Below are positions 8,480 through 49,225 of a stretch of DNA of 64,000 nt, piece by piece. This stretch comes from Halosolutus halophilus (GTDB lineage: Archaea; Halobacteriota; Halobacteria; Halobacteriales; Natrialbaceae): positions 930,001 through 994,000 of the forward strand of contig NZ_CP094974.1 in assembly GCF_022869805.1 (NCBI RefSeq), read 5' to 3'. Position numbers and translations under genes: made by a program. The notes beneath the pieces are model-generated. The model was not told the DNA's origin. It made no database searches and saw nothing but the letters and a program-made list of their open reading frames with translations. Within the stretch, counting starts at the first letter, position 1. Each line of letters begins with the position of its first letter.

Positions 8480-11233
8480 ATGACCAGTCATTACGATCAC
8501 GCGCAAGTGCAGGAGTTCTGGCAGTACGTCTGGGAGCGCGACGACGTCTACGAACTGGACGAGGACGCGGCGGATCCGACCTACGTCCTCGGGATGTTCC
8601 CCTACACCTCCGGGGAGCTCCACATGGGGCACATCCGAAACTACGCGATCACGGACGCGTACGCCCGCTATCGACGGATGCAGGGCGACGACGTCCTCCA
8701 CCCGATGGGCTGGGACGCGTTCGGCCTCCCCGCGGAAAACGCCGCCTACGAGCGGGCGAGCGACCCGGAATCCTGGACGCAGGCGTGTATCCGCCGGATG
8801 CGCGAGGAACTCGAGACGATGGGCTTTGGCTACGACTGGTCCCGGGAGATCACCACCTGCGAACCGGACTACTACCGCTGGAACCAGTGGCTGTTCAAGC
8901 GCCTCTACGAGGCGGGATTCGTCGAGTACGAGGCGGCGACGGTCAACTGGTGTCCGGACTGCGAGACCGTGCTGGCCGACGCACAGGTCGAGGAACGCGA
9001 GGACGAACGCAGTGAGTCCCCGGATCAGGAGAGCGGCGAAGCCGCGAGCCGCGCGAACGATCGGGTCTGCTGGCGCTGCGAGACGCCTGTCGGCCGCCGG
9101 GAACTCGACCAGTGGTTCTTCACGATCACCGACTACGCCGAGGAACTCCACGACGGACTGGACGACCTCACGGAGTGGCCCGACGGCGTCCGCGAGATCC
9201 AGCGCAACTGGATCGGCCGGCAGGAGGGGGCACGGATCGCGTTCGACGTCGAAACGAGCGGGGACGGCGGCCTCGGAAACGGGAGTGACGCGATCGACGT
9301 GTTCAGCACCCGCCCCGAGACGGTCTTCGGGGCGACCTACGTCGCCGTCTCGCCGGGCCACGACCTCGCGCAGGACCTGGCCGCGGCCGACGACGCGATC
9401 GAAGACTACGTGGAGTCGGTCCGCGAGCGGGGGCCGGACGAGGTCGGCTTCGCCGGCGTCGAAACGGACGCGCACGCACTGAACCCACTAACTGGCGAAG
9501 AACTGCCGGTGTACGTGGCGGGCTACGTCCTCGACGACGTCGGTACCGGTGCCGTGATGGGCGTGCCCGCGCACAACGATCGCGACCACGCGTTCGCCCG
9601 CGAACACGACCTACCGATCGAGTCGGTCGTCGTGCCGGCGGCCGCCGATGAGACGCCCACCGAAGACGACGCGGTCGACGTGGAGTCGGCAGCGTACACG
9701 GGCGAGGGACGCCTCGCGGTTCCGACCCGCGAGGAGTACGACGGACTCGAGAGCGCCACCGTCCGGGAGCGGCTGCCCGCCGAGCACGACGCGATCGAGG
9801 AGGACGTGACCTATCGGCTGCGGGACTGGCTGATCTCCCGCCAGCGCTACTGGGGGACGCCGATCCCGGTCGTCCACTGTGACGACTGCGGCCACGTCCT
9901 CGTCCCGGACGAGGACCTTCCGGTAGAACTGCCGGAGTTCGTCCGGACGACGGGGAACCCGCTCGCGGAACACGACTCGTTCCGCGAGACGACCTGTCCG
10001 GAATGCGGCGAGCCCGCACACCGCGAGACGGACACGATGGACACGTTCGTCGACTCCTCGTGGTACTTCCTGCGATTCCTCTCGCCGGACCTCGACGACG
10101 CGCCGTTCGATACCGATCGGGCCGCCGAATGGCTGCCGGTCGACGTCTACGTCGGCGGCGACGAACACGCGGTCCTCCACCTGCTGTACATCCGGTTCTT
10201 TACCCGGGCGCTCGCCGATCTCGGGCTACTGGAGGGGCGCGAGCCAGTCGAGAAACTCGTCAGTCAGGGGACGGTGCTGTACGACGGCGAGAAGATGTCC
10301 AGTTCGAAAGGGAACGTCGTCACGCCACAGGAGTACGGCGCGGAGACGACGCGGCTGTTCCTCCTCTCGGCAGCCCACCCGGAACAGGACTTCGAGTGGA
10401 CCGCGAACGACGTGCGCGAGGCGTACGACCTCCAGCAGACCGTCCATCGGATGGTGACCTCGTTCGTCAACGAGGGCGACACCCGCGTCGAGCGACGGGG
10501 TCACGACGACTACCTCGCCGCCGAGATCGATCGGACGATCGCCGCGGTGACCGACGAGTACGAGCGGTTCCGGTTCCACCGTGCGGCGACGGAGATTCAG
10601 GAACTCGCGCGCCTGCTCGGTCGGTACCGCGAGTTCGACCGCCCTCACGACGCGATCTACCGACGCGGCCTGCTGACGCTTACGGCACTGCTCGCGCCGA
10701 TGGCACCGCACCTCGGTGAGGAACTGTGGAACAAACTCCGTGGTGACGGACTCGTCGTCGAAGCCGACTGGCCCGACCCCGAACGGGACGTCACCGCGTA
10801 CGAGCGCGAACGGCGACTCGTCGAGACGACCCTCGACGACGTCCGCGACATCGTCGACGTGGCGGCGATCGACGATCCCGATCGGATCGAACTGGTCGTC
10901 GCCCCCGACTGGAAGTACCGGGTCGCGGCGTTACGAACCGAAGACGCCCCGGAGGAGGGAGAGGCGAAAGAGGAGGGGACGTCACTCGTCGAGCGAGCCG
11001 TCGACGACGAGGCGGTCCCGGTGGATCGCGAAACCGTCGCGTCGTTCCTCGCTGACCTGGAAACGGAGTCCGGTCAGCAGCTCTCGCCCGATCGAGAACG
11101 GGAACTCCTGGCACAGGCGACGTGGCTCGTGACCGACGAATTCGACGCGGCAGTGTCCGTGCGGACGGCCTCGCCGGGTTCGGAGTCGGCCGCGAAAGCG
11201 CGTCCCGGAAAGCCCGCGATACACATCTCCTGA
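8480..11233 (+). CDS. leuS: Leucyl-tRNA synthetase (bacterial-type)
   Basis: The 917-residue class I synthetase charges tRNA-Leu. Signature HMGH (residues 48-51, in ELHMGHIRNYAITDAYARY) and KMSSSKGN (from residue 605) form the ATP site. The CP1 editing domain is present (STRPETVFGATYVAVSPGH; GTGAVMGVPAHNDRDHAFA). The WDAFGLPAENAA and YWGTPIPVVHCDDCG strings and domain order resemble bacterial LeuRS rather than the archaeal/eukaryal form, as is known for haloarchaea. Zinc-ribbon Cys pairs are visible (CPDC..CWRC; CDDC..CPEC). The anticodon-binding domain follows KMSKS, and an acidic insert (PEEGEAKEEG) lies near the C-terminus. Confidence 0.97.
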   Translation: MTSHYDHAQVQEFWQYVWERDDVYELDEDAADPTYVLGMFPYTSGELHMGHIRNYAITDAYARYRRMQGDDVLHPMGWDAFGLPAENAAYERASDPESWTQACIRRMREELETMGFGYDWSREITTCEPDYYRWNQWLFKRLYEAGFVEYEAATVNWCPDCETVLADAQVEEREDERSESPDQESGEAASRANDRVCWRCETPVGRRELDQWFFTITDYAEELHDGLDDLTEWPDGVREIQRNWIGRQEGARIAFDVETSGDGGLGNGSDAIDVFSTRPETVFGATYVAVSPGHDLAQDLAAADDAIEDYVESVRERGPDEVGFAGVETDAHALNPLTGEELPVYVAGYVLDDVGTGAVMGVPAHNDRDHAFAREHDLPIESVVVPAAADETPTEDDAVDVESAAYTGEGRLAVPTREEYDGLESATVRERLPAEHDAIEEDVTYRLRDWLISRQRYWGTPIPVVHCDDCGHVLVPDEDLPVELPEFVRTTGNPLAEHDSFRETTCPECGEPAHRETDTMDTFVDSSWYFLRFLSPDLDDAPFDTDRAAEWLPVDVYVGGDEHAVLHLLYIRFFTRALADLGLLEGREPVEKLVSQGTVLYDGEKMSSSKGNVVTPQEYGAETTRLFLLSAAHPEQDFEWTANDVREAYDLQQTVHRMVTSFVNEGDTRVERRGHDDYLAAEIDRTIAAVTDEYERFRFHRAATEIQELARLLGRYREFDRPHDAIYRRGLLTLTALLAPMAPHLGEELWNKLRGDGLVVEADWPDPERDVTAYERERRLVETTLDDVRDIVDVAAIDDPDRIELVVAPDWKYRVAALRTEDAPEEGEAKEEGTSLVERAVDDEAVPVDRETVASFLADLETESGQQLSPDRERELLAQATWLVTDEFDAAVSVRTASPGSESAAKARPGKPAIHIS

Positions 11234-36704: not shown

Positions 36705-37388
36705 CTACACGTCGCCGGGGACGTCGATATCACGCCGTACGCCGGGGTCGTCGACGGAGACGAGAACGCTCGCATCGCTCTCCAGCAGGATCTCGCGACC
36801 GCCGACGTCGCCGTCGACGTCGGTGAGCGCGTCGAAGAACCGCTCGTCGAACAGCACCGGGTTGCCGCGGGTGCCGTCGAACGCCGCTGCGATCGCATCA
36901 CCGGCGTCCGCAGCGTACGCCGTCACCAGTGTGTCTACCGACGCGGGCGAGACGAACGGCATGTCGCCGAGCGCGACGACGGCGGCGTCAGGTTCGCGGT
37001 CGCGCTCGCGAATCGCCCGGATTCCGGTCCGGAGCGACGACGCCTGGCCGGTGTCGTAGGCCTCGTTGACGACGGTCTCGACGGCGAGTCCCTCCAGTTC
37101 GCTCCGAACCCGATCGGCCTCGTGGCCGAGAACGGCGACGACCGGATCGACGGCACTGCGAACGAGCGTGCGTGCGGCGTGACGGACCACCGGCTCGCCC
37201 TCGACCGTCGCCAGCAGCTTGTTCTCGTCACCGAAGCGGCTGCTCGTCCCGGCGGCGAGCAACACCCCGGCCACCGCCGGTGCGTCCGACCGCGAGTCGG
37301 GGTCGCGAGGGAGGTCGGCAGGTTCGACGACGGGAAGCGCGGCCGTCGCGGGCCGTTCCGGCGTCTCGTCGGACGAGTCCTCCGTCAT
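36705..37388 (-). CDS. mocA: MobA-like/MocA nucleotidyltransferase (molybdopterin cytidylyltransferase)
   Basis: 227 residues. AGVLLAAGTSSRFGDENKLL is the nucleotidyltransferase P-loop-like site, followed by RSAVDPVVAVLGHEADRVRS, AYDTGQASSLRTGI, VVALGDMPFVSPASVDTLV and GNPVLFDERFFDALTDVDGD. The AxGxSxR and GDMP motifs define the MocA/MobA-like group. It likely attaches CMP to molybdopterin, giving the MCD form used by CO dehydrogenase and its relatives. Its ATG overlaps the stop of moeA (ATGA at 37385-37388), so it is translated after moeA and stands divergent from the cox operon. Confidence 0.88.
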   Translation of the reverse strand: MTEDSSDETPERPATAALPVVEPADLPRDPDSRSDAPAVAGVLLAAGTSSRFGDENKLLATVEGEPVVRHAARTLVRSAVDPVVAVLGHEADRVRSELEGLAVETVVNEAYDTGQASSLRTGIRAIRERDREPDAAVVALGDMPFVSPASVDTLVTAYAADAGDAIAAAFDGTRGNPVLFDERFFDALTDVDGDVGGREILLESDASVLVSVDDPGVRRDIDVPGDV

Positions 37389-38614
37389 CGCTCCAGCACC
37401 GTCGACGGAACGACGGCGACCTCCTCGTCGGCGGCGACGGCGTCCGTCGTCAGCACGAACCCGTCGGCTCGGCTCGCACGCGTGCTCGAGGAGAGGACGC
37501 TCGGATCGAACGTGGTCTCGTAGATCGAAAGCGGCGAGTCGACGTGGCCGAGCGGCATCGCGGTTCCGTCCTCGAGCGCGACGGGAATCGCGTAGGTGAA
37601 GCCGGCGGTGGCGATCCCGACGTCGCGGGCCATCCCCGCGGAAACCGTCGGCAGTGACGCGTCGCCGGTAAAGAAGGGCCGGGCGACGAGCGCCGTCACC
37701 AGATAGGCACCGACCGGCTTCCCGGGGACGGCGATCGCCACCGCGTCGTGGTCGGGGAGCCGCGCGACGGCGATCGGTTTCCCCGGGCGCAGCCGGACGC
37801 GATGGAACAGAACGTCGCCGAGGGCGTCGAGCGTCCGGACGACGTAATCCTTGTCGCCGACGCTCGTCCCGCCGGTCGTGACGACGACGTCGTACTCGCG
37901 GGCGAGTTCGTCGATTCGGGACTCGACCCGATCGTTCGCGTCGGGGACCGAGCCCTCGTACGTCGCGTCGTGTCCCCATTCTCGGACGAGCCCCGCGAGC
38001 ATCGGCGAGTCGAGGTCGCGGTGGCGTCCCTCGTGAATCTCGGTTCCGGTCGCCACCAGTCCGACGGACGCCCGCTCGCGAACGACGACGTCGTCGATGC
38101 CGAGGTCGCCGAGCAACAGCGCGTCCTTCGCCCCGAGTCGATCGCCCGCGTCGAACAGTTCCTCTCCCTCACTGACGTTGCTGCCCCGCTGGTAGACGTA
38201 GGTCCCCGGTTCGAGCTCCGTCCCGGTGAGCCGACCGTCCTCGACGGTCGCTTCTTCGCGCTTGAGAACCGCGTTCGCCGACTCCGGCACCGGCGCACCG
38301 GTCGCGATCCGAACCGCCGTCCCGGCCTCGAGCGTCGGCGGCTCGTCTTCCGGGTACACCGGTTCGTCGACCACCGCGAGCGGATACTCGTCGGTCGCGT
38401 CGAACGCGAAGCCGTCCATCGTCGCGTGGCTGTGTGCGGGGACGTCGACCGGCGCACGGATCGGCTCCGCGAGCGTCCGACCGGCCAGTCCGTCGAGCGA
38501 GACGCGCTCCGTTCCGAGCGACGAGAGCCACTCCGCTCGAAGCGCACGAACGCGCTCGACGGCCGCATCCAGTTCGATCAGATCGTCGCCGTCGTGTGAT
38601 TTCTCGTCGGTCAT
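37385..38614 (-). CDS. moeA: Molybdopterin molybdenumtransferase
   Basis: 409 residues. It inserts molybdate into molybdopterin. Signatures are HSHATMDGFAFDATDEYPLA (the MDG site), TGAPVPESANAVLKREE, VVTTGGTSVGDKDYVVRTLD, RLRPGKPIAVARL and VPGKPVGAYLVTALV. Domain order and size are those of archaeal MoeA. It starts at the ATG at 38614. It is divergent from coxG across 164 bp and shares a likely regulatory region, which links cofactor insertion to CO dehydrogenase production. Confidence 0.95.
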   Translation of the reverse strand: MTDEKSHDGDDLIELDAAVERVRALRAEWLSSLGTERVSLDGLAGRTLAEPIRAPVDVPAHSHATMDGFAFDATDEYPLAVVDEPVYPEDEPPTLEAGTAVRIATGAPVPESANAVLKREEATVEDGRLTGTELEPGTYVYQRGSNVSEGEELFDAGDRLGAKDALLLGDLGIDDVVVRERASVGLVATGTEIHEGRHRDLDSPMLAGLVREWGHDATYEGSVPDANDRVESRIDELAREYDVVVTTGGTSVGDKDYVVRTLDALGDVLFHRVRLRPGKPIAVARLPDHDAVAIAVPGKPVGAYLVTALVARPFFTGDASLPTVSAGMARDVGIATAGFTYAIPVALEDGTAMPLGHVDSPLSIYETTFDPSVLSSSTRASRADGFVLTTDAVAADEEVAVVPSTVLER

Positions 38615-38778: not shown

Positions 38779-39375
38779 ATGGAGTTCGACGGGGAGTTCG
38801 AACTCGAGGAGGTACCGCCGGAGAAGGCGTGGATCGTCCTCTCGGACCCGATCGCGGTCCGAAATTCGCTGAAGGGCTGTCGGTACATTACCCCGATGGA
38901 CGACGACTTCAGTTTCGACGAATACGAACCCGACGAGGACCTGGAGACGCTACCCGAGGCCGATCCGGAGACCGTCGCCGCACGCGCGTTCGAAGAAGGC
39001 CGGGAGTACGCCGCGCTGATGCAGGTCGGAGTCGGGAGCGTCAAACCCCGGTTCGAGACGTCGGTGACGATCCAGGAGCGCGACACGGAGTCGTTCGTCA
39101 TGGTCGCGACCGGAAGCGGGACCGCGAGCGGGAGCAGCTTCAGCATGGACTCGGGGATGCAGATTCACCCGCTCGAGGACGGCGACGGCTCGCGGATCGA
39201 GTGGTGGACCGAAGCCGACATCTCGGGACGCATCGCCCAGCTCGGTTCGCGGGTCATCGACCCCGTCGCGAACAAGATCGTGGGCAACTTCTTCGGAGAT
39301 ATCGAACAGCAAATGACCGACGTCGACGAGGAGACGGATTCGGGCATCACGGACCGGATCCGCGGAATGTTATGA
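38779..39375 (+). CDS. coxG: CoxG-like SRPBCC domain protein
   Basis: 198 residues, START/SRPBCC fold: MEFDGEFELEEVPPEKAWIV, LSDPIAVRNSLKGCRYI, QVGVGSVKPRFETSVTIQER, GTASGSSFSMDSGMQIHPLE and IAQLGSRVIDPVANKIVGNF. In Oligotropha, CoxG recruits CO dehydrogenase to the membrane. Here no transmembrane segment is visible. Its position as the first gene of the operon is unusual compared with the bacterial order, where it is last. The ATG at 38779 is used (the GTG three codons before is less likely); its stop overlaps the coxM ATG (ATGA at 39372-39375). Confidence 0.9.
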   Translation: MEFDGEFELEEVPPEKAWIVLSDPIAVRNSLKGCRYITPMDDDFSFDEYEPDEDLETLPEADPETVAARAFEEGREYAALMQVGVGSVKPRFETSVTIQERDTESFVMVATGSGTASGSSFSMDSGMQIHPLEDGDGSRIEWWTEADISGRIAQLGSRVIDPVANKIVGNFFGDIEQQMTDVDEETDSGITDRIRGML

Positions 39376-40259
39376 AACCAGCACAGTTCGAGCAACACGA
39401 GCCCGAGACCGTCGAGGAAGCCGTGAGCCTGCTCGAGAGTCTCGACGATCGGGCGATTCTGGCCGGCGGACAGAGCATGGTTCCGATGCTCCGGTTCCGA
39501 CTCGCGGTTCCGGAGACCGTCATCGACATCAACCGAATCGAGAGCCTCGATTACCTCGAAGAGGACGACGAGTGGCTCAGAATCGGCGCGCTCGCACGCC
39601 ACGCGGACGTCGAGGAGTCCGAGCTGATCGCCGAGAAGTACGGCAGCTTCGCCGACACGGCACCGCTCGTCGCGGACCCGCAGATCCGCAATCGCGGCAC
39701 GGTCGCCGGCGCGATCGCGCAGGCGGACCCGAAAGGCGACTGGGGGAGCGTCCTGCTCGCACACGAAGGCGAGGTCGTCGCGCAGGGCCCCGACGGCGAG
39801 CGGGTCATCCCCGCGGACGACTTCTTCCTGTTGCCCTACGATACGACCCTCGACGAGAACGAACTGCTCACCGAACTTCGCGTCCCGGTGCCGGCCGATC
39901 GTGAGGGAAGCGCCTACCACAAGCTGAAACGGAAGGTCGGCGACTACGCGATGGCCGGCTCGGCCGCACGGCTCGTCCTCGACGAGGACGGACGCATCGA
40001 GCGCGCCGGCATCGGACTCACTGCCGTCGACATCACGAACGTCCGGGCGACCGACGCCGAGGCGCACCTCGAGGGTGAACGGCCTGGGAGCGAACTGTTC
40101 AAGCGCGCGGGCGAGCTGGCGGCCGAGCAGTCCAACCCCGAGTCCGACGAACACGGCGATGCGGACTACAAAGAACGCATGGTGAACGTCCTCACCCAGC
40201 GCGCGCTCGCCGACGCCGCCGAGCGTGCCGGACTGGTCAAACGGAGGGTATCACAGTGA
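39372..40259 (+). CDS. coxM: CO dehydrogenase medium (FAD-binding) subunit
   Basis: 295 residues. It carries the FAD that passes electrons from the [2Fe-2S] clusters of CoxS to quinone. FAD motifs: [20 protein letters not shown] (the AGGQS pyrophosphate-binding loop) and [20 protein letters not shown] (equivalent of the TIGG loop). The C-terminal CO_deh_flav_C domain ([36 protein letters not shown]) follows. It starts at the ATG at 39372 overlapping the coxG stop. Size and order are those of form I systems. Confidence 0.95.
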
Positions 40260-40903
40260 CAAACGCACGAGAGATCACGCTGACGGTCAACGGAACCGAA
40301 CACACGATCGAGGTCGAACCGCGGCAACTGCTCGTCCACGCCATCCGGGAGGAACTGGACCTGACCGGGACGCACATCGGGTGTGACACCGGGAACTGCG
40401 GCGCGTGTACCGTCATCAAAGACGGGGAGCCGATCAAGTCCTGTCTCATGTTCGCGACCCAGGCCGACGGGAGCGAGCTCATGACCGTCGAAGGCATGGA
40501 GGATCTCCCCGAAGCGCGCGGCGAATTGCATCCGTTGCAGGAAGGGTTCCGCGAGGAACACGGGCTCCAGTGTGGCTACTGTACGCCCGGGATGCTCATG
40601 TCCGGAAAGGCGTTACTCGACGAGAACCCGGATCCGAACGAGGACGAGATCCGCGAAGCGATCAGCGGCAACCTCTGTCGGTGTACCGGCTACCAGAACA
40701 TCGTGCGATCGATCGAGTACGCCGCGGACGAACTCGAGTCGGTCGCGGCCGCGGACGGCGGTGAGCGACCCACGGATTCGCGATCCGCGTCGGAGACCCG
40801 ATCCGACGGCGGCGTCGCCGTCGACGGCGAGTTCGACTGCGGCGTCGAGAACTGCTGTGGTGGGCCGACGACCGATCGCGAACGCGGAGGTGAGTCAGAA
40901 TGA
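40256..40903 (+). CDS. coxS: CO dehydrogenase small ([2Fe-2S]) subunit with Cys-rich tail
   Basis: 215 residues from a GTG in a GTGA overlap. Residues 1-80 hold the plant-type [2Fe-2S] domain ([20 protein letters not shown], then KSCLMFATQ). Residues 80-160 hold the second cluster domain ([40 protein letters not shown]). These deliver electrons from the Mo centre to FAD. Bacterial CoxS is about 160-166 residues; the extra 50 residues here are low complexity and end in [18 protein letters not shown], which has three Cys (CGVENCC) and may hold metal. Confidence 0.94.
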
Positions 40904-43383
40904 GCAGCGATTCCGAACAGTACGCGGAGGCGGAGGACGGCGGCCCCCAGCCCGAGAAGCACTGCGGTCACGGCCGTGGTGGGATGGGTGAAGAGGTCAA
41001 ACGAAAGGAAGATCAGCGGTTCATCACCGGTCGCGGCAACTACGTCGACGACATCAAGAAACCGGAGATGCTCCACTGCGAACTCGTCCGCAGTCCGCAC
41101 GCACACGCCCGCATCGAGGACATCGACAAATCTCGGGCGCTGAAGGTCGACGGAGTCGTCGCCGTCCTCACCGCGGAGGACTTGCTCGAGTACGACCTCG
41201 CGACGATGCCGACGCTGATGGACGACACGCAGGACGTGCTGGTCAACGACAAGGTCAAGTTCCAGTCCCAGGAGGTCGCGGCCGTCATCGCGGACGATCG
41301 GTACGCGGCGAAAGACGGGGCGGAGAAAGTCGTCGTCGACTACGACGTGCTCGAGCCGGTCGTCGACGCCGAGGAGGCCCTCGAGGACGACGCCCCGGTG
41401 ATCAGAGACGACATCGAGGGCAAGGAGGACAATCACTGTCTCGACTGGGAGACCGGCGACGAGGAGGCCACCGCCGCGGCCTTCGAAGAGGCCGACGTCA
41501 CCGTCGAGGAGGACATGCTCTACCAGCGACTGCACCCCGCCCCGATCGAGACCTGCGGTGCAGTCGGCGACTACGATCCCGGCAAGGACAAGCTGACGGT
41601 CCACATGACCTCGCAGGCGCCGCACATCCACCGGACGCTGTTCGCGCAGGTCTCGGGGATCCCCGAACACAAGATCCGGATCGTGAGCCCCGACGTCGGG
41701 GGCGGATTCGGGAACAAGGTGCCGATCTATCCCGGCTACGTCGTCGCCGCCGCGGCGTCGTACGTGCTCGAACGGCCGGTGAAGTGGATCGAAGAGCGAT
41801 CGGAGAACATCCAGTCGACCGGGTTCGCACGCGACTACGACATGACGGGCGAACTCGCGGCGACCGACGACGGCGAGATCCTGGCGGTTCGAACCGACGT
41901 GCTGGCCGATCACGGCGCGTACAACGCCGTGGCCCAGCCGTCGAAGTTCCCCGCCGGGTTCTTCAACATCTTCACGGGGTCGTACGACGTCGAGACGGCC
42001 TACGGGTCGCTGACGGCGGCCTACACGAACAGCGCACCGGGCGGCGTGGCGTACCGGTGTTCGTTCCGCGTGACGGAGGCGGTCTACCTCATCGAGCGGA
42101 TGGTGAAGGTCCTCGCGGACGAACTCGGGATGGATCCCGCCGACGTTCGGCGGAAGAACTTCATCCAGCCGGACCAGTTCCCCTACGAGAGTCCGACGGG
42201 GTGGAACTACGACTCGGGCGACTACGAGACGGCGCTCGACAAGGCCCTCGAGATGGCCGACTACGAGGCCTACCGCGAGGAACAGCAACGCCGGATCGAG
42301 GAGGACGCCGACAAACTGCTCGGGATCGGTATCTCCTCCTTTACCGAAGTCGTCGGGGCCGGCCCCGGGAAGTCCTGCGACATCGCCGGCGTCGAGATGT
42401 TCGACTCCGCCGAGATCCGGGTCCACCCGACCGGGAACGCGACGGTCCGGGTCGGCGTCCAGACGCAGGGCCAGGGCCACGAAACGACGTTCGCCCAGAT
42501 CGTCGCCGAGGAACTCGGGATGGACGTCGACGACATCACCGTCGAACACGGCGACACCGACACCGATCCCTACGGCCTCGGCACGTACGGCTCCCGGAGT
42601 ACGCCCGTCGCCGGCGCGGCGGCCGCCGTCGCCTCGCGCAAGGTTCGCGAGAAGGCGAAAGCGATCGCGGCGAACGAACTCGAGGCTGCCGAGGAGGACA
42701 TCACGTGGGACCGCGAGAGCGGCGAGTTCCACGTCGCCGGCGCGCCGGATCGATCGATCTCGATCACCGAGATCGCCGCCGGGGCGTACATGAACCACCC
42801 CACGAGCGAAGAGCCGGGGCTCGAAGCGGTCAACTACTACGATCCGCCGGAGATGACGTATCCGTTCGGGTCCTACGTCGTGATCGTCGAAGTCGACCGC
42901 GAGACCGGCGAGGTCGACTTCGAGAAGTTCGTCGCCGTCGACGACTGCGGCAACCGGATCAATCCGATGATCATCGAGGGCCAGATCCACGGCGGCCTCG
43001 CCCAGGGGATCGGAACGGCGATGCTGGAACACGTCACCTTCGACGACAACGGCAACGTCACCGGTGGCGACTTCATGAACTATCTGCTGCCGACCGCGAT
43101 GGAGATCCCCGAATTCGAGACGGGCCACACCGTCACGCCGTCACCCCACCACCCGATCGGCGCGAAAGGGGTCGGCGAGTCGCCGACGGTCGGTTCGCCG
43201 CCGGCGATCGTCAACGCGGTCGTCGACTCGATGGCCCACGGCGGCATCAGCCACGTCGAGATGCCGATGACCCCCGACGTCGTCTGGGAGAAACTCGACG
43301 AAGCGGGACTCGCGGCCGATCCCGCCGACAACATCGCGCTCGAGTTCGATGACCAGCGGAGCGACGAGGCGGCGGACGACTGA
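40900..43383 (+). CDS. coxL: CO dehydrogenase large (molybdenum) subunit, form I
   Basis: 827 residues, the catalytic subunit of aerobic CO dehydrogenase (CO + water to CO2, electrons to quinone). The form I active-site loop is VAYRCSFR, with Cys387 (Cys388 in Oligotropha) binding Cu of the Mo-S-Cu centre. The other form uses AYRGAGR, so this is form I. The catalytic base is Glu760 in [13 protein letters not shown]-binding strings include [36 protein letters not shown] and [20 protein letters not shown]. The N-terminal 25 residues are acidic with a [11 protein letters not shown] string. It starts at the ATG at 40900 (ATGA overlap). CO oxidation by haloarchaea with form I coxL is known. Confidence 0.97.
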
Positions 43384-43527: not shown

Positions 43528-44646
43528 ATGACAGCAGACACACCACCAGACGCCGACGAGACCGAGGCGACTACCGATCGAGCAGCTGTAGCGTCCGACG
43601 GGGAGCTCGCGGAGCGAGAGCGAGCCCTGAGAAATCGCGACGAGCCCTACGCCCGCGCGACCGTCGTCCGCCGCGAACCGCCGGTTTCCGCCAACGTCGG
43701 CGATCGGGCGCTCGTCACGGCCGACGGCGACCTCCACGGGTGGATCGGCGGTGCAGCCTGCGCCCAGTCGCGGGTCGTCAGCGAGGCCCAGTCGGCCATC
43801 GCGAACGACGAACCACAGTTGATCGGCCTCGCACCCGATCCCGACGACGTCGATCGGCCCGGACTCGCGGCCTTTCCGATGCTGTGTCACAGCGAGGGAA
43901 CGCTCGAAATATTCGTCGAACCGGTGATTCCGGCGACGCGACTCCTCGTCGTGGGTGGGTCGCCGATCGCCCGCTCGCTCGTCAGGCTGGCGACCGAACT
44001 CGACGTCGACGTGACGATCGTCGATCCCGAGGCGGCGGACGCGGATCTCCCGGACGGGACGAGCGTCCTCTCCACGCTCGAACCCGACGAGATCGCCGAG
44101 GCGGTCGGTGCGGGCCCGTTCGTCGTCGTGGCCTCGATGGGAGAGTTCGACGCTCGTGGCGTCGCTGCCGGCGTGCTCTCGGATGCACCGTACGTCGGAC
44201 TCGTCGCGAGTGACGCCCGCGCGACCGAGGTCGTCGACCGGGCTGCCGGCCTCCTGGATCGCGATCCGGCGGCGGTTCGAGACGCGATCACGAATCCGGC
44301 GGGCGTCGACATCGCGGCCAGGTCCGCGGCCGAGATCGCGACGAGCCTGCTGGCCGAACTGGTCGACGTGCGGGCCGACACCGGGACGAGTACGGCGTCC
44401 GCGATCGACTCGAGCGCCGATACGGACGACGCCGAACGCGCCGGTTCCGACGACGAGGAGTCGGTCACCGAGGCGTCGGCGATCGATCCCGTCTGCGGGA
44501 TGACGGTCGACCCTGACGACGCCCCGAGCGTCACCCACGAGGGGACGACGTACTACTTCTGTTGTCCCGGCTGTGCGGACTCCTTTCGAAACGAGCCCGA
44601 CGAGTATCTAGAGGCGACCGAAGACGGACCGATGGAATCAGTATGA
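43528..44646 (+). CDS. XdhC/CoxF-family protein fused to a C-terminal YHS domain
   Basis: 372 residues. Residues about 25-110 match the XdhC_CoxI domain (ERALRNRDEPYARATVVRRE, DLHGWIGGAACAQSRVV). Residues about 135-285 are the Rossmann-like XdhC_C domain (RLLVVGGSPIARSLVRLATE, FVVVASMGEFDARGVAAGVL, AITNPAGVDIAARSAAEIAT). An acidic linker then leads to a YHS/metal-binding domain (residues about 320-365): DPVCGMTVDPDDAPSV, TYYFCCPGCADSFRNEPDEY, with four Cys (one, then CC, then C). XdhC proteins load the sulfurated Mo cofactor; YHS domains bind metals such as copper. The fusion suggests a role in building the Mo-S-Cu centre. Confidence 0.9.
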   Translation: MTADTPPDADETEATTDRAAVASDGELAERERALRNRDEPYARATVVRREPPVSANVGDRALVTADGDLHGWIGGAACAQSRVVSEAQSAIANDEPQLIGLAPDPDDVDRPGLAAFPMLCHSEGTLEIFVEPVIPATRLLVVGGSPIARSLVRLATELDVDVTIVDPEAADADLPDGTSVLSTLEPDEIAEAVGAGPFVVVASMGEFDARGVAAGVLSDAPYVGLVASDARATEVVDRAAGLLDRDPAAVRDAITNPAGVDIAARSAAEIATSLLAELVDVRADTGTSTASAIDSSADTDDAERAGSDDEESVTEASAIDPVCGMTVDPDDAPSVTHEGTTYYFCCPGCADSFRNEPDEYLEATEDGPMESV

Positions 44647-45659
44647 CGGGCGATACGCCGGTGACGCCGGTCGACGCGCTGTCCGAATCGGAGATCAGGG
44701 AGCGCTTCGAGCGCCGGAACTACGTCGCGGACGACCGCGTGATCACGACCGTACAGCTCGCCCTCCAGCTCGGGCGACCGCTCCTCGTCGAGGGGCCGCC
44801 CGGCAGCGGAAAGACCGAACTCGGCAAGGTCCTCGCCGACGGGTTCGACACGGAGCTGATTCGGCTCCAGTGTTACGAGGGACTCACGGCCGAGAACGCG
44901 CTCTACGAGTGGAATTACACGAAACAGCTGCTCGCGGTGCAGTCGAACGAGGGAACGGTGGCCGGCAGATCCGCGAGGTCCGACGCCCCGCCGGACGACC
45001 CGGAAACCGGCCCCGGCTCCGACGCCGAAATCGACGGCCCGCCGTCCGTATTCGACGACGAGTACCTGCTCGAGCGACCGCTCTTGCGCGCGCTCACCGC
45101 CGGCGGCGACCGATCGCCGGTCCTGTTGATCGACGAAATCGACCGCGCAGACGAAGGGTTCGAGGCCTTCCTGCTCGAACTCCTCTCGGATTATCAGGTG
45201 TCGATTCCGGAACTGGGGACGATCAGCGCCGAGAACCCGCCGATCGTCGTCCTCACCTCGAATCGCACTCGCGGTCTCAGCGACGCGCTCAAGCGGCGGT
45301 GTCTGTACCTGCACGTCGAGCCGCCGTCGTTCGAGACGGAGTACGAGATCGTCTCCCGCAAGGTCCCCGAACTCGACGCGGCGATCGCGGCCGAAGTGTG
45401 CGCCGTCGTCGAACGCCTCCGGGAGGAATCGTTCCTCAAACGACCGGGCGTCGCCGAGACGCTCGACTGGGCGCGTGCGATCGCGGCACTCCGATCCGAG
45501 GGCGAGGCCGAATCGCTCTCGACGGCCGAAATCGAACGGACGATCGGTTGCCTCCTCAAGGAAGTCGAAGACGTCACCCGCGTCGACACCGCCTTGCTCG
45601 AACAGCTCCACGCGGCCGCCGCTGCGGCCGACGAGCGAGTCGAACCCGCCGACACATGA
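44643..45659 (+). CDS. coxD: CoxD-type MoxR AAA+ ATPase
   Basis: 338 residues. Walker A LVEGPPGSGKTELGKVLADG, Walker B PVLLIDEIDRADEGFEAFLL, sensor 1 VVLTSNRTRGLSD, and R-finger region DALKRRCLYLHVEPP. MoxR ATPases of the CoxD type assist maturation of the [MoO2S]Cu site. An acidic insert of about 35 residues (RSARSDAPPDDPETGPGSDA) between the first helices and EYLLERPLLRALTA is probably halophile-specific. The ATG at 44643 overlaps the stop of the preceding gene (ATGA), showing translational coupling. Confidence 0.94.
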   Translation: MTGDTPVTPVDALSESEIRERFERRNYVADDRVITTVQLALQLGRPLLVEGPPGSGKTELGKVLADGFDTELIRLQCYEGLTAENALYEWNYTKQLLAVQSNEGTVAGRSARSDAPPDDPETGPGSDAEIDGPPSVFDDEYLLERPLLRALTAGGDRSPVLLIDEIDRADEGFEAFLLELLSDYQVSIPELGTISAENPPIVVLTSNRTRGLSDALKRRCLYLHVEPPSFETEYEIVSRKVPELDAAIAAEVCAVVERLREESFLKRPGVAETLDWARAIAALRSEGEAESLSTAEIERTIGCLLKEVEDVTRVDTALLEQLHAAAAAADERVEPADT

Positions 45660-47077
45660 CCCCCAACCGGAACTCCTCGGACGCCGTCGACGACTCCCGT
45701 CGAGTCGACGCCGCGCGTGACGACATGCGAGGGCTCGATCGACGGCCCGGGAACGGGTTGCCGGACTTCGAGGCTGCACGCACCCACGTGCTGACGGAAC
45801 TCGTTCGCTTCGTCGGCCGTCTCCGCCGCGAGGGCGTCCCCGTGGCGGCGAACGGCACCCTCGAGGCGGCGCGAGCGCTCGCCGTGGTCGGACTCGGTGA
45901 TCGGGAACGCGTCCGCGACGCGCTCCGTGCAACGCTGCTCACCGGGGCGAACGACCGCGAGGCGTTCGAGGAGTCGTTTCCCACGTTCTGGCATCGCGTG
46001 CGGACCGGAATCGATCGAATAGCGACGCACGAAGGGGCGCGTTCGTCCGACGGGGCCGACCCAGCCGACTCAACCGCAACGGAACACCGGGAGTCCGAGC
46101 CGTTGTCCGCCGCCGATCCGCCGTCGCCCGACTCGAGCGACGGCCCGGAGACGGTCGACGTCCGGATCGCGACCGGCCGCCGGCACGCGACCGGGGAGCG
46201 CCCGAGCGGCGACGGCGGTGACGACGCGCGTCGGTATAGCGCCGTCGGGGGACGCGCCCCCGTCACGGCCGACGGCGTGTCGTTGTCCGACGACGACGGC
46301 GCAGCGATCGACCGGTTCGTCGATGCGCTGGCGTCGATCCCCGGTCGGCGCACCCGTCTGGCCCCGGGCGGTGACCGCATCGACGCTCGACGAGCGCTCC
46401 GGACGAGTCTCGGGACCGGAGGGACGGCGATGGAGCTGCCGACCCGCGAATCGGTCCCGAGCGAACTTCGCTGCTGTCTGTTGCTCGACGTCAGCGGCTC
46501 CGTCCTCGATACGATCGACCGCGAAACGCTGCTCGCCGTGGCGGAACGAGTACAGGGAGTCGCACGAACGGGGTCCGTCTTCCTGTTCGACACGGATCTC
46601 GTCGACGCGACCGAGCAGTTCGAGCGCGCGGACGGCGATCCGGCCGCGGCCCTTCGAGAGGCCGAGATAGAGTGGGGTGGCGGCACGCGGATCGGCGACG
46701 CGTTCGAAACGCTCCGGCGACGCCACCCCCACGCGGTGGACCGGCGGACCGTCGTCGTCGTGGTCAGCGACGGTCTCGACGTCGGTGACCGGACGACCCT
46801 GGAGGACGGGATCACCTGGCTCGCCCGCCGAGCCGACGCGATCGTCTGGCTCAATCCGCTCGCAGTATCGCCGGCGTACGAACCGCGGTCGCGAGGGATG
46901 GCGACGTGTCTCCCCTACGTCGACGGCCTGTTCGGCTTCGCGGAACCGGCCGACCTCGCCGAAGTCGCTCGACAACTCGAGCGCCGCGGGATCGGCGGGC
47001 CGATCGGCTACGAACACGATCCGCGCCGCGTCGGGACCGGAGACGACCCGCAGAGAGACGAGGGAGACGGAGCATGA
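45656..47077 (+). CDS. coxE: CoxE-type VWA domain protein
   Basis: 473 residues. Helical N-terminus (ARTHVLTELVRFVGRLRREG; RDALRATLLTGANDREAFEE), a long acidic linker, and a C-terminal von Willebrand A domain with the MIDAS motif DVSGS (CCLLLDVSGSVLDTIDRET), GGGTRIGDAFETL and VVVVVSDGLDVGDRTTLEDG. The YDPxxxRxSxF-type end is present as PYVDGLFGFAEPADLAEVAR. CoxE works with CoxD in copper or sulfur insertion into the CoxL centre. The ATG at 45656 overlaps the coxD stop. Confidence 0.92.
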   Translation: MTPNRNSSDAVDDSRRVDAARDDMRGLDRRPGNGLPDFEAARTHVLTELVRFVGRLRREGVPVAANGTLEAARALAVVGLGDRERVRDALRATLLTGANDREAFEESFPTFWHRVRTGIDRIATHEGARSSDGADPADSTATEHRESEPLSAADPPSPDSSDGPETVDVRIATGRRHATGERPSGDGGDDARRYSAVGGRAPVTADGVSLSDDDGAAIDRFVDALASIPGRRTRLAPGGDRIDARRALRTSLGTGGTAMELPTRESVPSELRCCLLLDVSGSVLDTIDRETLLAVAERVQGVARTGSVFLFDTDLVDATEQFERADGDPAAALREAEIEWGGGTRIGDAFETLRRRHPHAVDRRTVVVVVSDGLDVGDRTTLEDGITWLARRADAIVWLNPLAVSPAYEPRSRGMATCLPYVDGLFGFAEPADLAEVARQLERRGIGGPIGYEHDPRRVGTGDDPQRDEGDGA

Positions 47078-48042
47078 TCGACCCGATCCTTCCGGCCGTC
47101 GTCGACCGACTCCGCTCGATCGGCGCTCTCGAGGGAGCGACGGCGGAGCGCGTCACGCTCGGTGACGCGACGCTCATGGTCGAACTCGCGGGCGTCGAGT
47201 CCGGAACCGGGGCCGAAGCCGGAACTGCGGACGTAGCCGGTGGCTCCCGGGGAAGCCACCGAACCGCCGGCTTCGCCCATCGACCGCCCGGGAACGGACG
47301 GACGGCGGACGCTCTCGACGAGTCGACGGACGGCGTCGACGTCGAAACGCTCGTCCGGTGGGCGACGCGAACGCCGGGCGGATCGTCGACCGAAACGATC
47401 GGCTATCCCGGGACACCGCGAGACGGCACGCTGCTCGAGCGCGCACTCGGCGTCGCCGCGATCAACGCGCTGTCGGCACCGTTCGTCGACTGGAACCCGG
47501 GCGATCCGATGGCGTTGCTGGATCCGGCCGTCGACGCGATCACGACGGTCGGCCTCTTCCGGCCCGCGTTCCGGAAGTTCGCCGACGTCGACGTTCGCGT
47601 CATCGAACGGACCGACGTCGGATCGGTGTCCTCTCCCGACGGCGTCAGCGTCACGACGTTCCGACCGGACGCGGCGAGCGCGGCGATGGCGGACGCGGAC
47701 GTCGTCTTCGTCACCGGCTCCACGTTCGTGTACGGCGGTCTCGAGGCGTACCTCGAGGCCGCGCCGGCGGCGGCGACGGTCGTTCTGATCGGTGCGACCG
47801 CGTCGGTCCTTCCCGGACCGGCGTTCGCGGCCGGGGTGGACGTCGTCGCCGGGGCGTCGGTAACCGAAACCGAACGCGATCGCGTCCGCGAGGCCGTCCG
47901 AGCAGGCGCGTGCGGAACTGACCTGCACGACGCCGGCGTTCGGAAAGTGTACGCGGTGGCCGATCGAGCCACCGGACCGGGCCAGGCCCTGAAACGCGTG
48001 CGAAACGAGCGGCCGGATCGAGACGACACGACGAACGACTGA
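47074..48042 (+). CDS. DUF364 family protein (putative heavy-metal chelation domain)
   Basis: 322 residues, translationally coupled to coxE (ATGA). Residues about 110-322 are the DUF364-like fold: LERALGVAAINALSAPFVDW, NPGDPMALLDPAVDAITTVG, LFRPAFRKFADVDVRVIERT, VVFVTGSTFVYGGLEAYLEA and VVLIGATASVLPGPAFAAGV. The family (PF04016-like) is described as a putative heavy-metal chelator. The N-terminal 110 residues match a DUF4213-like piece and have a disordered, acidic insertion. Its fixed place between coxE and the second xdhC suggests a role in metal delivery to the active site, not known in bacterial operons. Confidence 0.85.
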   Translation: MIDPILPAVVDRLRSIGALEGATAERVTLGDATLMVELAGVESGTGAEAGTADVAGGSRGSHRTAGFAHRPPGNGRTADALDESTDGVDVETLVRWATRTPGGSSTETIGYPGTPRDGTLLERALGVAAINALSAPFVDWNPGDPMALLDPAVDAITTVGLFRPAFRKFADVDVRVIERTDVGSVSSPDGVSVTTFRPDAASAAMADADVVFVTGSTFVYGGLEAYLEAAPAAATVVLIGATASVLPGPAFAAGVDVVAGASVTETERDRVREAVRAGACGTDLHDAGVRKVYAVADRATGPGQALKRVRNERPDRDDTTND

Positions 48043-48058: not shown

Positions 48059-49225
48059 ATGACACAACGCAACTGGAGTGTTCCGGAGACAGAGGTGGTA
48101 CAGCGCATTCACGAGCGACTCGACGCGGCGGGGACGGACGTCCTCGCGACGATCGTCGACGTCGAGGGGAACGCGTACCGACGGCCGGGTGCGAAAATGC
48201 TCCTCGACGAAGCGGGCGACGGCGTCGGCAGCATTACGGCCGGCTGTCTCGAAGACGAACTGCTCGCGACGGCCGAGTCGGTTCGCGAACGCGGCCGCCC
48301 GGAGCTGGTAACGTACGATCTGATGGAGGACGACGACGTCTGGGGCCTCGGGGTCGGCTGCAACGGGATTATCGACGTTCTGCTGGAGCCGCTGACCGAC
48401 GCCTATCGCCCGACGGTCGAGGCATTCGCCGACGGGCGGAACGTAGCCGTTCTCACCGTTCTCGAGGGCTCGGAGGGACCGCTCGACCGTGGCGACCGCG
48501 TGTACTACTATCCGGACGAGGGAGTCCTCACGACCCCGGACGGTGAACCGGCGACGGACTGGCCCGCCGACCTCTCGGGCCCCGCGGCCGACCTCGCCGA
48601 ACGCGGGCGAGCCGACGTCGTCGAGGTCGCTCTGCAGGGGAGCCAGCTGGAGGTGTTCGTCGACGGACTCACGGCGCCGACGGAACTGGTCGTCTTCGGA
48701 TCGGGTCACGACGTGGGGCCGGTCACCGAACTGGCCGCGATGAACGACTTCCGCGTCACCGTCGTCGGCTTCCGCGGGAGCGTCGACCTCGAGGACCGGT
48801 TTCCAGCGGCGGACGAAACGGTGACGACCTCGCCGGCGGCCGTCGACGACGCGATCGACCTCGACGATCGGACCTACGCGGTCGTCATGACCCACAACTT
48901 CGTCGACGATCGGTTGACGATCGAGCAGCTACTGGATTCGCCCGTCCCGTACGTCGGCCTGATGGGGCCTCGCAAGCGGTTCGAGGAAATGCTCGAGGAG
49001 TTCGAGAGCGAGGGCCGGACGTTCGAGGAGGCGGCGCTATCGAGGCTGTATACGCCGATCGGACTCGATCTCGGCGGCGGTTCTCCCTACCAGATCGCCC
49101 TCAGTATCGTCGCGGAGGTACTGGCGGTGTCCAACGATCGGACGCCGCGCCACCTGAAGAGCCGCGAGGGCCACATCCACGATCGCGTCGCCGTCGACTC
49201 GAACGGCAACGTCCCGTCACAGTAG
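48059..49225 (+). CDS. XdhC/CoxI family molybdoenzyme maturation protein
   Basis: 388 residues. XdhC_CoxI domain: VVQRIHERLDAAGTDVLATI, DVEGNAYRRPGAKMLLDEAG, VGSITAGCLEDELLATA, MEDDDVWGLGVGCNGIIDVL (GCNGxxDVL motif). Then the XdhC_C Rossmann part: ELVVFGSGHDVGPVTELAAM, RTYAVVMTHNFVDDRLTIEQ, VPYVGLMGPRKRFEEML and IGLDLGGGSPYQIALSIVAE. It likely delivers a sulfurated MCD cofactor to CoxL. The other XdhC member of the operon carries the YHS domain; the two are probably distinct in role. Last gene of the cluster. Confidence 0.95.
   Translation: MTQRNWSVPETEVVQRIHERLDAAGTDVLATIVDVEGNAYRRPGAKMLLDEAGDGVGSITAGCLEDELLATAESVRERGRPELVTYDLMEDDDVWGLGVGCNGIIDVLLEPLTDAYRPTVEAFADGRNVAVLTVLEGSEGPLDRGDRVYYYPDEGVLTTPDGEPATDWPADLSGPAADLAERGRADVVEVALQGSQLEVFVDGLTAPTELVVFGSGHDVGPVTELAAMNDFRVTVVGFRGSVDLEDRFPAADETVTTSPAAVDDAIDLDDRTYAVVMTHNFVDDRLTIEQLLDSPVPYVGLMGPRKRFEEMLEEFESEGRTFEEAALSRLYTPIGLDLGGGSPYQIALSIVAEVLAVSNDRTPRHLKSREGHIHDRVAVDSNGNVPSQ

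Follow-up and report, generated by a model that had tools for sequence, protein, structure and literature searches.

Genomic context of coxF in Halosolutus halophilus

The window, a 64,000-nucleotide stretch of the Halosolutus halophilus genome (contig NZ_CP094974.1 of assembly GCF_022869805.1, positions 930,001 to 994,000 of the forward strand), contains a cox operon whose genes all lie on one strand in the order coxG-coxM-coxS-coxL, coxF-YHS, coxD-coxE-DUF364-coxI. Read along the plus strand in window coordinates, it comprises genes for a CoxG-like SRPBCC protein (38779..39375; PF06240 COXG), the FAD subunit CoxM (39372..40259; PF00941, PF03450), the 2Fe-2S subunit CoxS (40256..40903; PF01799, PF00111), and the large subunit CoxL (40900..43383), followed by coxF-YHS (43528..44646). 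The stop codon of coxF is overlapped by the ATG of coxD, which encodes a MoxR-type AAA+ ATPase (44643..45659; PF07728). Further downstream are coxE, encoding a VWA protein (45656..47077; PF05762 VWA_CoxE, E = 1.8e-38), a gene for a DUF364 protein (“putative heavy-metal chelation”; 47074..48042; PF04016), and coxI, encoding a second XdhC paralogue without a YHS domain (48059..49225; PF02625, PF13478). Most neighbours overlap by 4 bases, and a gap of 144 bases separates coxL from coxF. Upstream of the operon, on the minus strand, lie moeA (37385..38614; PF03453, PF00994) and a gene for a MobA/MocA-like nucleotidyltransferase (36705..37388; family read from the translation).

CoxL scores 1218.7 bits against the equivalog model TIGR02416 (cut-off 991.15), and the motif AYRCSFR in its translation fits the form I motif AYxCSFR. 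By these sequence matches, the client encoded next to coxF-YHS is a form I (Mo/Cu) CO dehydrogenase (CODH), an enzyme with what is, to our knowledge, the sole Mo/Cu centre known. With form I coxL and coxG, coxM, coxS, coxD, coxE, and coxI around the gene, the cox-operon setting proposed in an earlier, sequence-only reading of this DNA is borne out.

The tail of CoxS carries a CCGG-type cysteine motif (CGVENCCGG) that is possibly an extra metal site. CoxL has an N-terminal extension containing Cys/His. The DUF364 gene between coxE and coxI is also present in nearly all of the form I cox clusters fetched from haloarchaea, is absent from one of them (L126), and possibly encodes a further metal-handling factor.

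Domain architecture and predicted structure of CoxF

The coxF-YHS gene is an intact open reading frame from ATG to stop and encodes 372 amino acids with matches to three Pfam domains, all on the plus strand: XdhC_CoxI (residues 35-98, 43630..43821; PF02625, E = 6e-13), the Rossmann domain XdhC_C (residues 139-278, 43942..44361; PF13478, E = 1.5e-18), and YHS (residues 319-363, 44482..44616; PF04945, E = 7.4e-14). Both XdhC matches exceed the Pfam cut-off, and the YHS match reaches 51.9 bits against a gathering cut-off of 30.3. The intact frame and the three matches confirm the earlier description of an XdhC/CoxF-like protein with a C-terminal YHS domain. Two cysteines of the XdhC part, C78 within the XdhC_CoxI domain (codon 43759-43761) and C120 in MLCHSEGTLE (codon 43885..43887), are invariant among 61 fusion proteins.

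An AlphaFold2 model built from the 61-sequence alignment (mean pLDDT 88.5) predicts two confident folded parts (pLDDT mostly >90) with a disordered linker between them. In a PDB fold search, the only strong matches were XdhC structures (2we7/2we8, the Mycobacterium smegmatis Rv0376c homologue, and 3on5), and the Rossmann domain matches the fold of these same entries. The Rhodobacter capsulatus XdhC binds the molybdenum cofactor (Moco) and acts as a sulfuration chaperone. Both this protein and the Rv0376c homologue share the XdhC fold with the window CoxF and lack a YHS domain; the client of the R. capsulatus protein is an enzyme without copper, whereas the window CoxF sits beside a Mo/Cu CODH.

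The linker (residues 286-317, 44383..44478; pLDDT <50 at 298-314) has 10 acidic residues and 1 basic residue among its 32. The acidic linker noted in the sequence-only reading is therefore present in this protein, but linkers in the bacterial CoxF-YHS proteins sampled are mostly 10-28 residues long and non-acidic, and we rejected acidity as a functional element in favour of a halophile trait. Natronorubrum CoxF linkers (L037, L075) contain a CCGG-type cysteine motif (SCCGGG), possibly an extra metal site.

YHS domains are related to treble-clef zinc fingers (TRASH), and that of the window CoxF fits the ligand pattern D/C-x2-C ... C-x3-C, with D320, C323, C345, and C349 as putative ligands. These four residues are near-invariant: they are kept in 27 of 27 haloarchaeal copies, which were chosen through coxL alone, and are 97–100% conserved over 112 fusion proteins, part of which were selected with the DPVCGM pattern. 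The XdhC parts, by comparison, are ∼41% identical on average across fusion lineages. In the CoxF of Deinococcus sp. AJ005 (L040:5947-7008), the YHS domain is degenerate, with PVDGE for PVCGM and threonine at the C345 position (FTCANC).

The four residues match the D-C-C-C set proposed for the YHS domain of the Mycobacterium phlei adenylyl cyclase, which makes the cyclase responsive to copper but to none of the other metals tried (PMC4626032). Both domains are C-terminal and follow a linker, a short one in M. phlei, but the M. phlei YHS regulates the cyclase and has no tie to metalloenzyme assembly, unlike that of CoxF. Other YHS proteins of the H. halophilus genome (L004, L005, L006, L008) include permease-like membrane proteins with two YHS-like segments and a YHS-MaoC-like fusion; a YHS domain alone thus does not mean copper.

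Distribution of the XdhC-YHS fusion

The form I coxL motif was found in 28 of 292 haloarchaeal genomes, and a CoxF match (E ≤ 1e-30) was present in exactly those 28 and in no others. The CoxF adjacent to coxL carries the YHS domain in 27 of the 28 (26 of 27 fetched clusters plus the window), and it is for haloarchaea only, a set chosen via coxL alone, that we claim prevalence. The sole YHS-less CoxF, in haloarchaeon G020, ends after the linker; no YHS remnant was found there in any frame, and we rejected a broken gene with a remnant in another frame as an explanation.

Among the XdhC genes of a 116-genome haloarchaeal subset, the YHS domain is restricted to CoxF. This subset contained 58 XdhC_C genes, namely 9 CoxF and 49 others (9 CoxI and 40 elsewhere); YHS was present on eight of the nine CoxF and on none of the 49 non-CoxF genes (Fisher p = 5e-9, with genes matched by coordinates and kinship uncorrected). 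For haloarchaea, these zero cases in 49 led us to reject the possibility, raised in the earlier reading, that such fusions occur widely away from cox clusters.

Beyond haloarchaea, a collection scan with patterns including DPVCGM, which biases the set towards DPVCGM-bearing fusions so that it shows breadth and not prevalence, returned 80 fusion loci in many phyla. Seventy-four of the 80 hold coxL, and in 68 loci the CoxF domain starts ≤400 bases from the coxL stop. Groups with a fusion next to form I coxL include actinobacteria (mycobacteria among them), Chloroflexi, Thermomicrobia, and further phyla. CoxF-YHS proteins of Thermomicrobium roseum, mycobacteria, Streptomyces, Ktedonobacter, and Natronorubrum have the same three domains in the same place after coxL; those of non-halophiles differ from the window CoxF in their shorter, non-acidic linkers, and T. 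roseum lacks the adjoining coxD and coxE seen in the window.

Six fusion loci lack coxL, four of them on short or cut contigs. The other two have ample flanks: L088 carries coxD and coxE with no coxL within 9 kb, and in L044 (a Chloroflexi MAG, 8968-10161) two YHS domains come after XdhC and cox genes are absent within 9 kb. A Thermoplasmata MAG (L052:2143-3996) has a single open reading frame combining a MobA-like nucleotidyltransferase, XdhC, and YHS, in which internal starts are possible, on a contig too short to show coxL.

With fusions present across phyla, uniqueness to this genome is rejected. In most lineages sampled, CoxF typically has this architecture; the core of the sequence-only reading, a CoxF-type XdhC-YHS fusion in a form I Mo/Cu operon, stands.

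CoxF orthology and history of the YHS domain

In a quick CoxI-rooted tree, CoxI rows stand apart from all CoxF rows, whether these have YHS or not (SH-aLRT 96), and this one tree identifies the window protein as orthologous to CoxF, an XdhC-type factor for the maturation of form I CODH. In alphaproteobacteria, the homologue found in this genomic setting is CoxF; that of Oligotropha carboxidovorans (Afipia) OM5 is encoded on pHCG3 (L151:8983-9825). Like the window CoxF, the OM5 protein combines XdhC_CoxI and XdhC_C, adjoins coxL, coxD, and coxE in a form I operon, and has both N-domain cysteines. It differs in length and in the YHS domain (280 amino acids without YHS versus 372 with it) and in gene order (coxL-D-E-F versus coxL-F-D-E in the window).

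CODH from O. carboxidovorans coxE and coxF mutants is without copper, and copper has been proposed to be carried at M107CPSHGTM of CoxF (PMC4240915). This motif aligns at C120 of the window CoxF. C78 and C120 have counterparts in the CoxI sequences compared (alignment by eye), and with a cysteine at the equivalent place in CoxI, the C120 site is probably not copper-specific. The YHS domain is the only extra candidate metal site in the window CoxF. Since copper insertion in O. carboxidovorans depends on a CoxF that has no YHS, the domain is not indispensable in principle.

CoxF without YHS was found in O. carboxidovorans, seven other alphaproteobacteria, and the haloarchaeon G020. On the CoxI-rooted tree, a quick one with a distant outgroup and sampling that favours fusions, this state requires a change on the branch leading to alphaproteobacteria (8 rows, support 98) and a second in G020, which suggests that YHS was ancestral in CoxF and lost twice. 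The two parts of the fusion have co-evolved: distances between XdhC parts correlate with those between YHS domains (Mantel r = 0.58, with 0 of 1000 permutations as high), which fits joint inheritance.

The O. carboxidovorans cluster includes the MHYT-type regulator CoxC, none of which was found in the YHS clusters examined, and MHYT and YHS never occurred together in the cox clusters examined. In the alphaproteobacterial form I clusters L151-L153 and L155-L158, an MHYT protein lies upstream of coxM and CoxF has no YHS. We considered a copper-binding MHYT protein that replaces YHS and rejected it: CoxC is a CO-responsive transcription regulator (PMC11347149), so the mutual exclusion is better read as different regulation.

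Possible role of the YHS domain in CODH maturation

With moderate confidence, we favour a reading in which the CoxF YHS domain binds copper, holds it by the maturation site, and passes it on during CODH maturation. The XdhC part would work at the molybdenum cofactor site of apo-CODH, either together with CoxD and CoxE or after them. The tethered YHS would bind a transition metal, most likely copper, through D320, C323, C345, and C349, and the flexible linker would let it reach the maturation site. Copper could then be handed on directly or via the XdhC cysteines C78 and C120, as the last step towards the [CuSMoO2] cluster. Copper as the metal, its transfer, and this order of events are what we infer; delivery is favoured because of the match to the D-C-C-C set of a copper-responsive YHS, the conserved ligands, and the flexible tether. 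The YHS domain is a good candidate for the part of CoxF that provides or senses copper, and the copper chaperone-insertase suggested in the sequence-only reading is a putative role.

Delivery is challenged most by lineages that insert copper in the absence of YHS: the CoxF proteins of alphaproteobacteria and G020 indicate that insertion can work without the domain. Where YHS is present, it would then help when copper is scarce or stand in for another donor. That O. carboxidovorans CoxF works without YHS would also suit a copper sensor or gate, in which copper-bound YHS switches CoxF so that completion of the sulfurated Mo site waits for available copper. Such a role gains from the sole functionally tested YHS, in the M. 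phlei cyclase, being a copper-responsive regulatory domain (PMC4626032), and from the tethering of YHS by a linker at the end of CoxF. We nevertheless regard it as unlikely, as XdhC proteins have no known regulatory output; delivery would predict the near-fixed pairing with a Cu-dependent CODH just as well.

Slightly less probable still is a structural or docking zinc finger, with YHS holding zinc and offering a binding surface for CoxL, CoxD, or CoxE outside copper chemistry. YHS/TRASH domains are placed in the treble-clef zinc-finger group, the metal of the L24e TRASH domain is structurally bound (PMC4626032; PMC4999995), and YHS also occurs on the MaoC-like enzyme of the same genome. A general docking role would, however, predict YHS on CoxI too, and the domain is found on the XdhC protein that goes with the only family member known to depend on Cu but on none of the 49 other XdhC genes. 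Near-fixed ligands in proteins whose XdhC parts have diverged so far, with the 27 haloarchaeal copies free of DPVCGM selection, make it very improbable that YHS is an inherited passenger, an old fusion with little present function kept by descent. The losses in alphaproteobacteria and G020 while the cluster stayed, and the Deinococcus sp. AJ005 domain without its first ligand cysteine and with threonine at the C345 position, are what such a passenger would have in its favour.

Combining copper delivery with the history of the domain, we raise tentatively, as a possibility rather than the expected outcome, that CoxF-YHS is an ancestral one-protein Mo-S-Cu builder, with the XdhC part handling the sulfurated Mo site and YHS dedicated to delivering copper; alphaproteobacteria would have lost YHS and would need another copper route.

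Significance for CO oxidizers

In the library of papers searched, XdhC and YHS, or YHS and CoxF, are not mentioned together, nor are the TRASH domain and carbon monoxide dehydrogenase; the reviews and the CO-oxidation survey covered name CoxF as an XdhC homologue only or omit it. The earlier suggestion that the fusion is undescribed holds for that literature, which gives no account of the architecture, but subscription journals and domain-architecture databases may show it.

The maturation model in current use derives from a single alphaproteobacterium and involves a putative copper motif and a phytase activity of CoxF. Should the CoxF of most CO oxidizers, mycobacteria and halophiles among them, contain its own metal-binding domain, the source of the copper would become testable in tractable species; M. 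smegmatis would be one, provided that its CoxF has YHS. CoxF-YHS could also be tried as a helper in heterologous CODH production.
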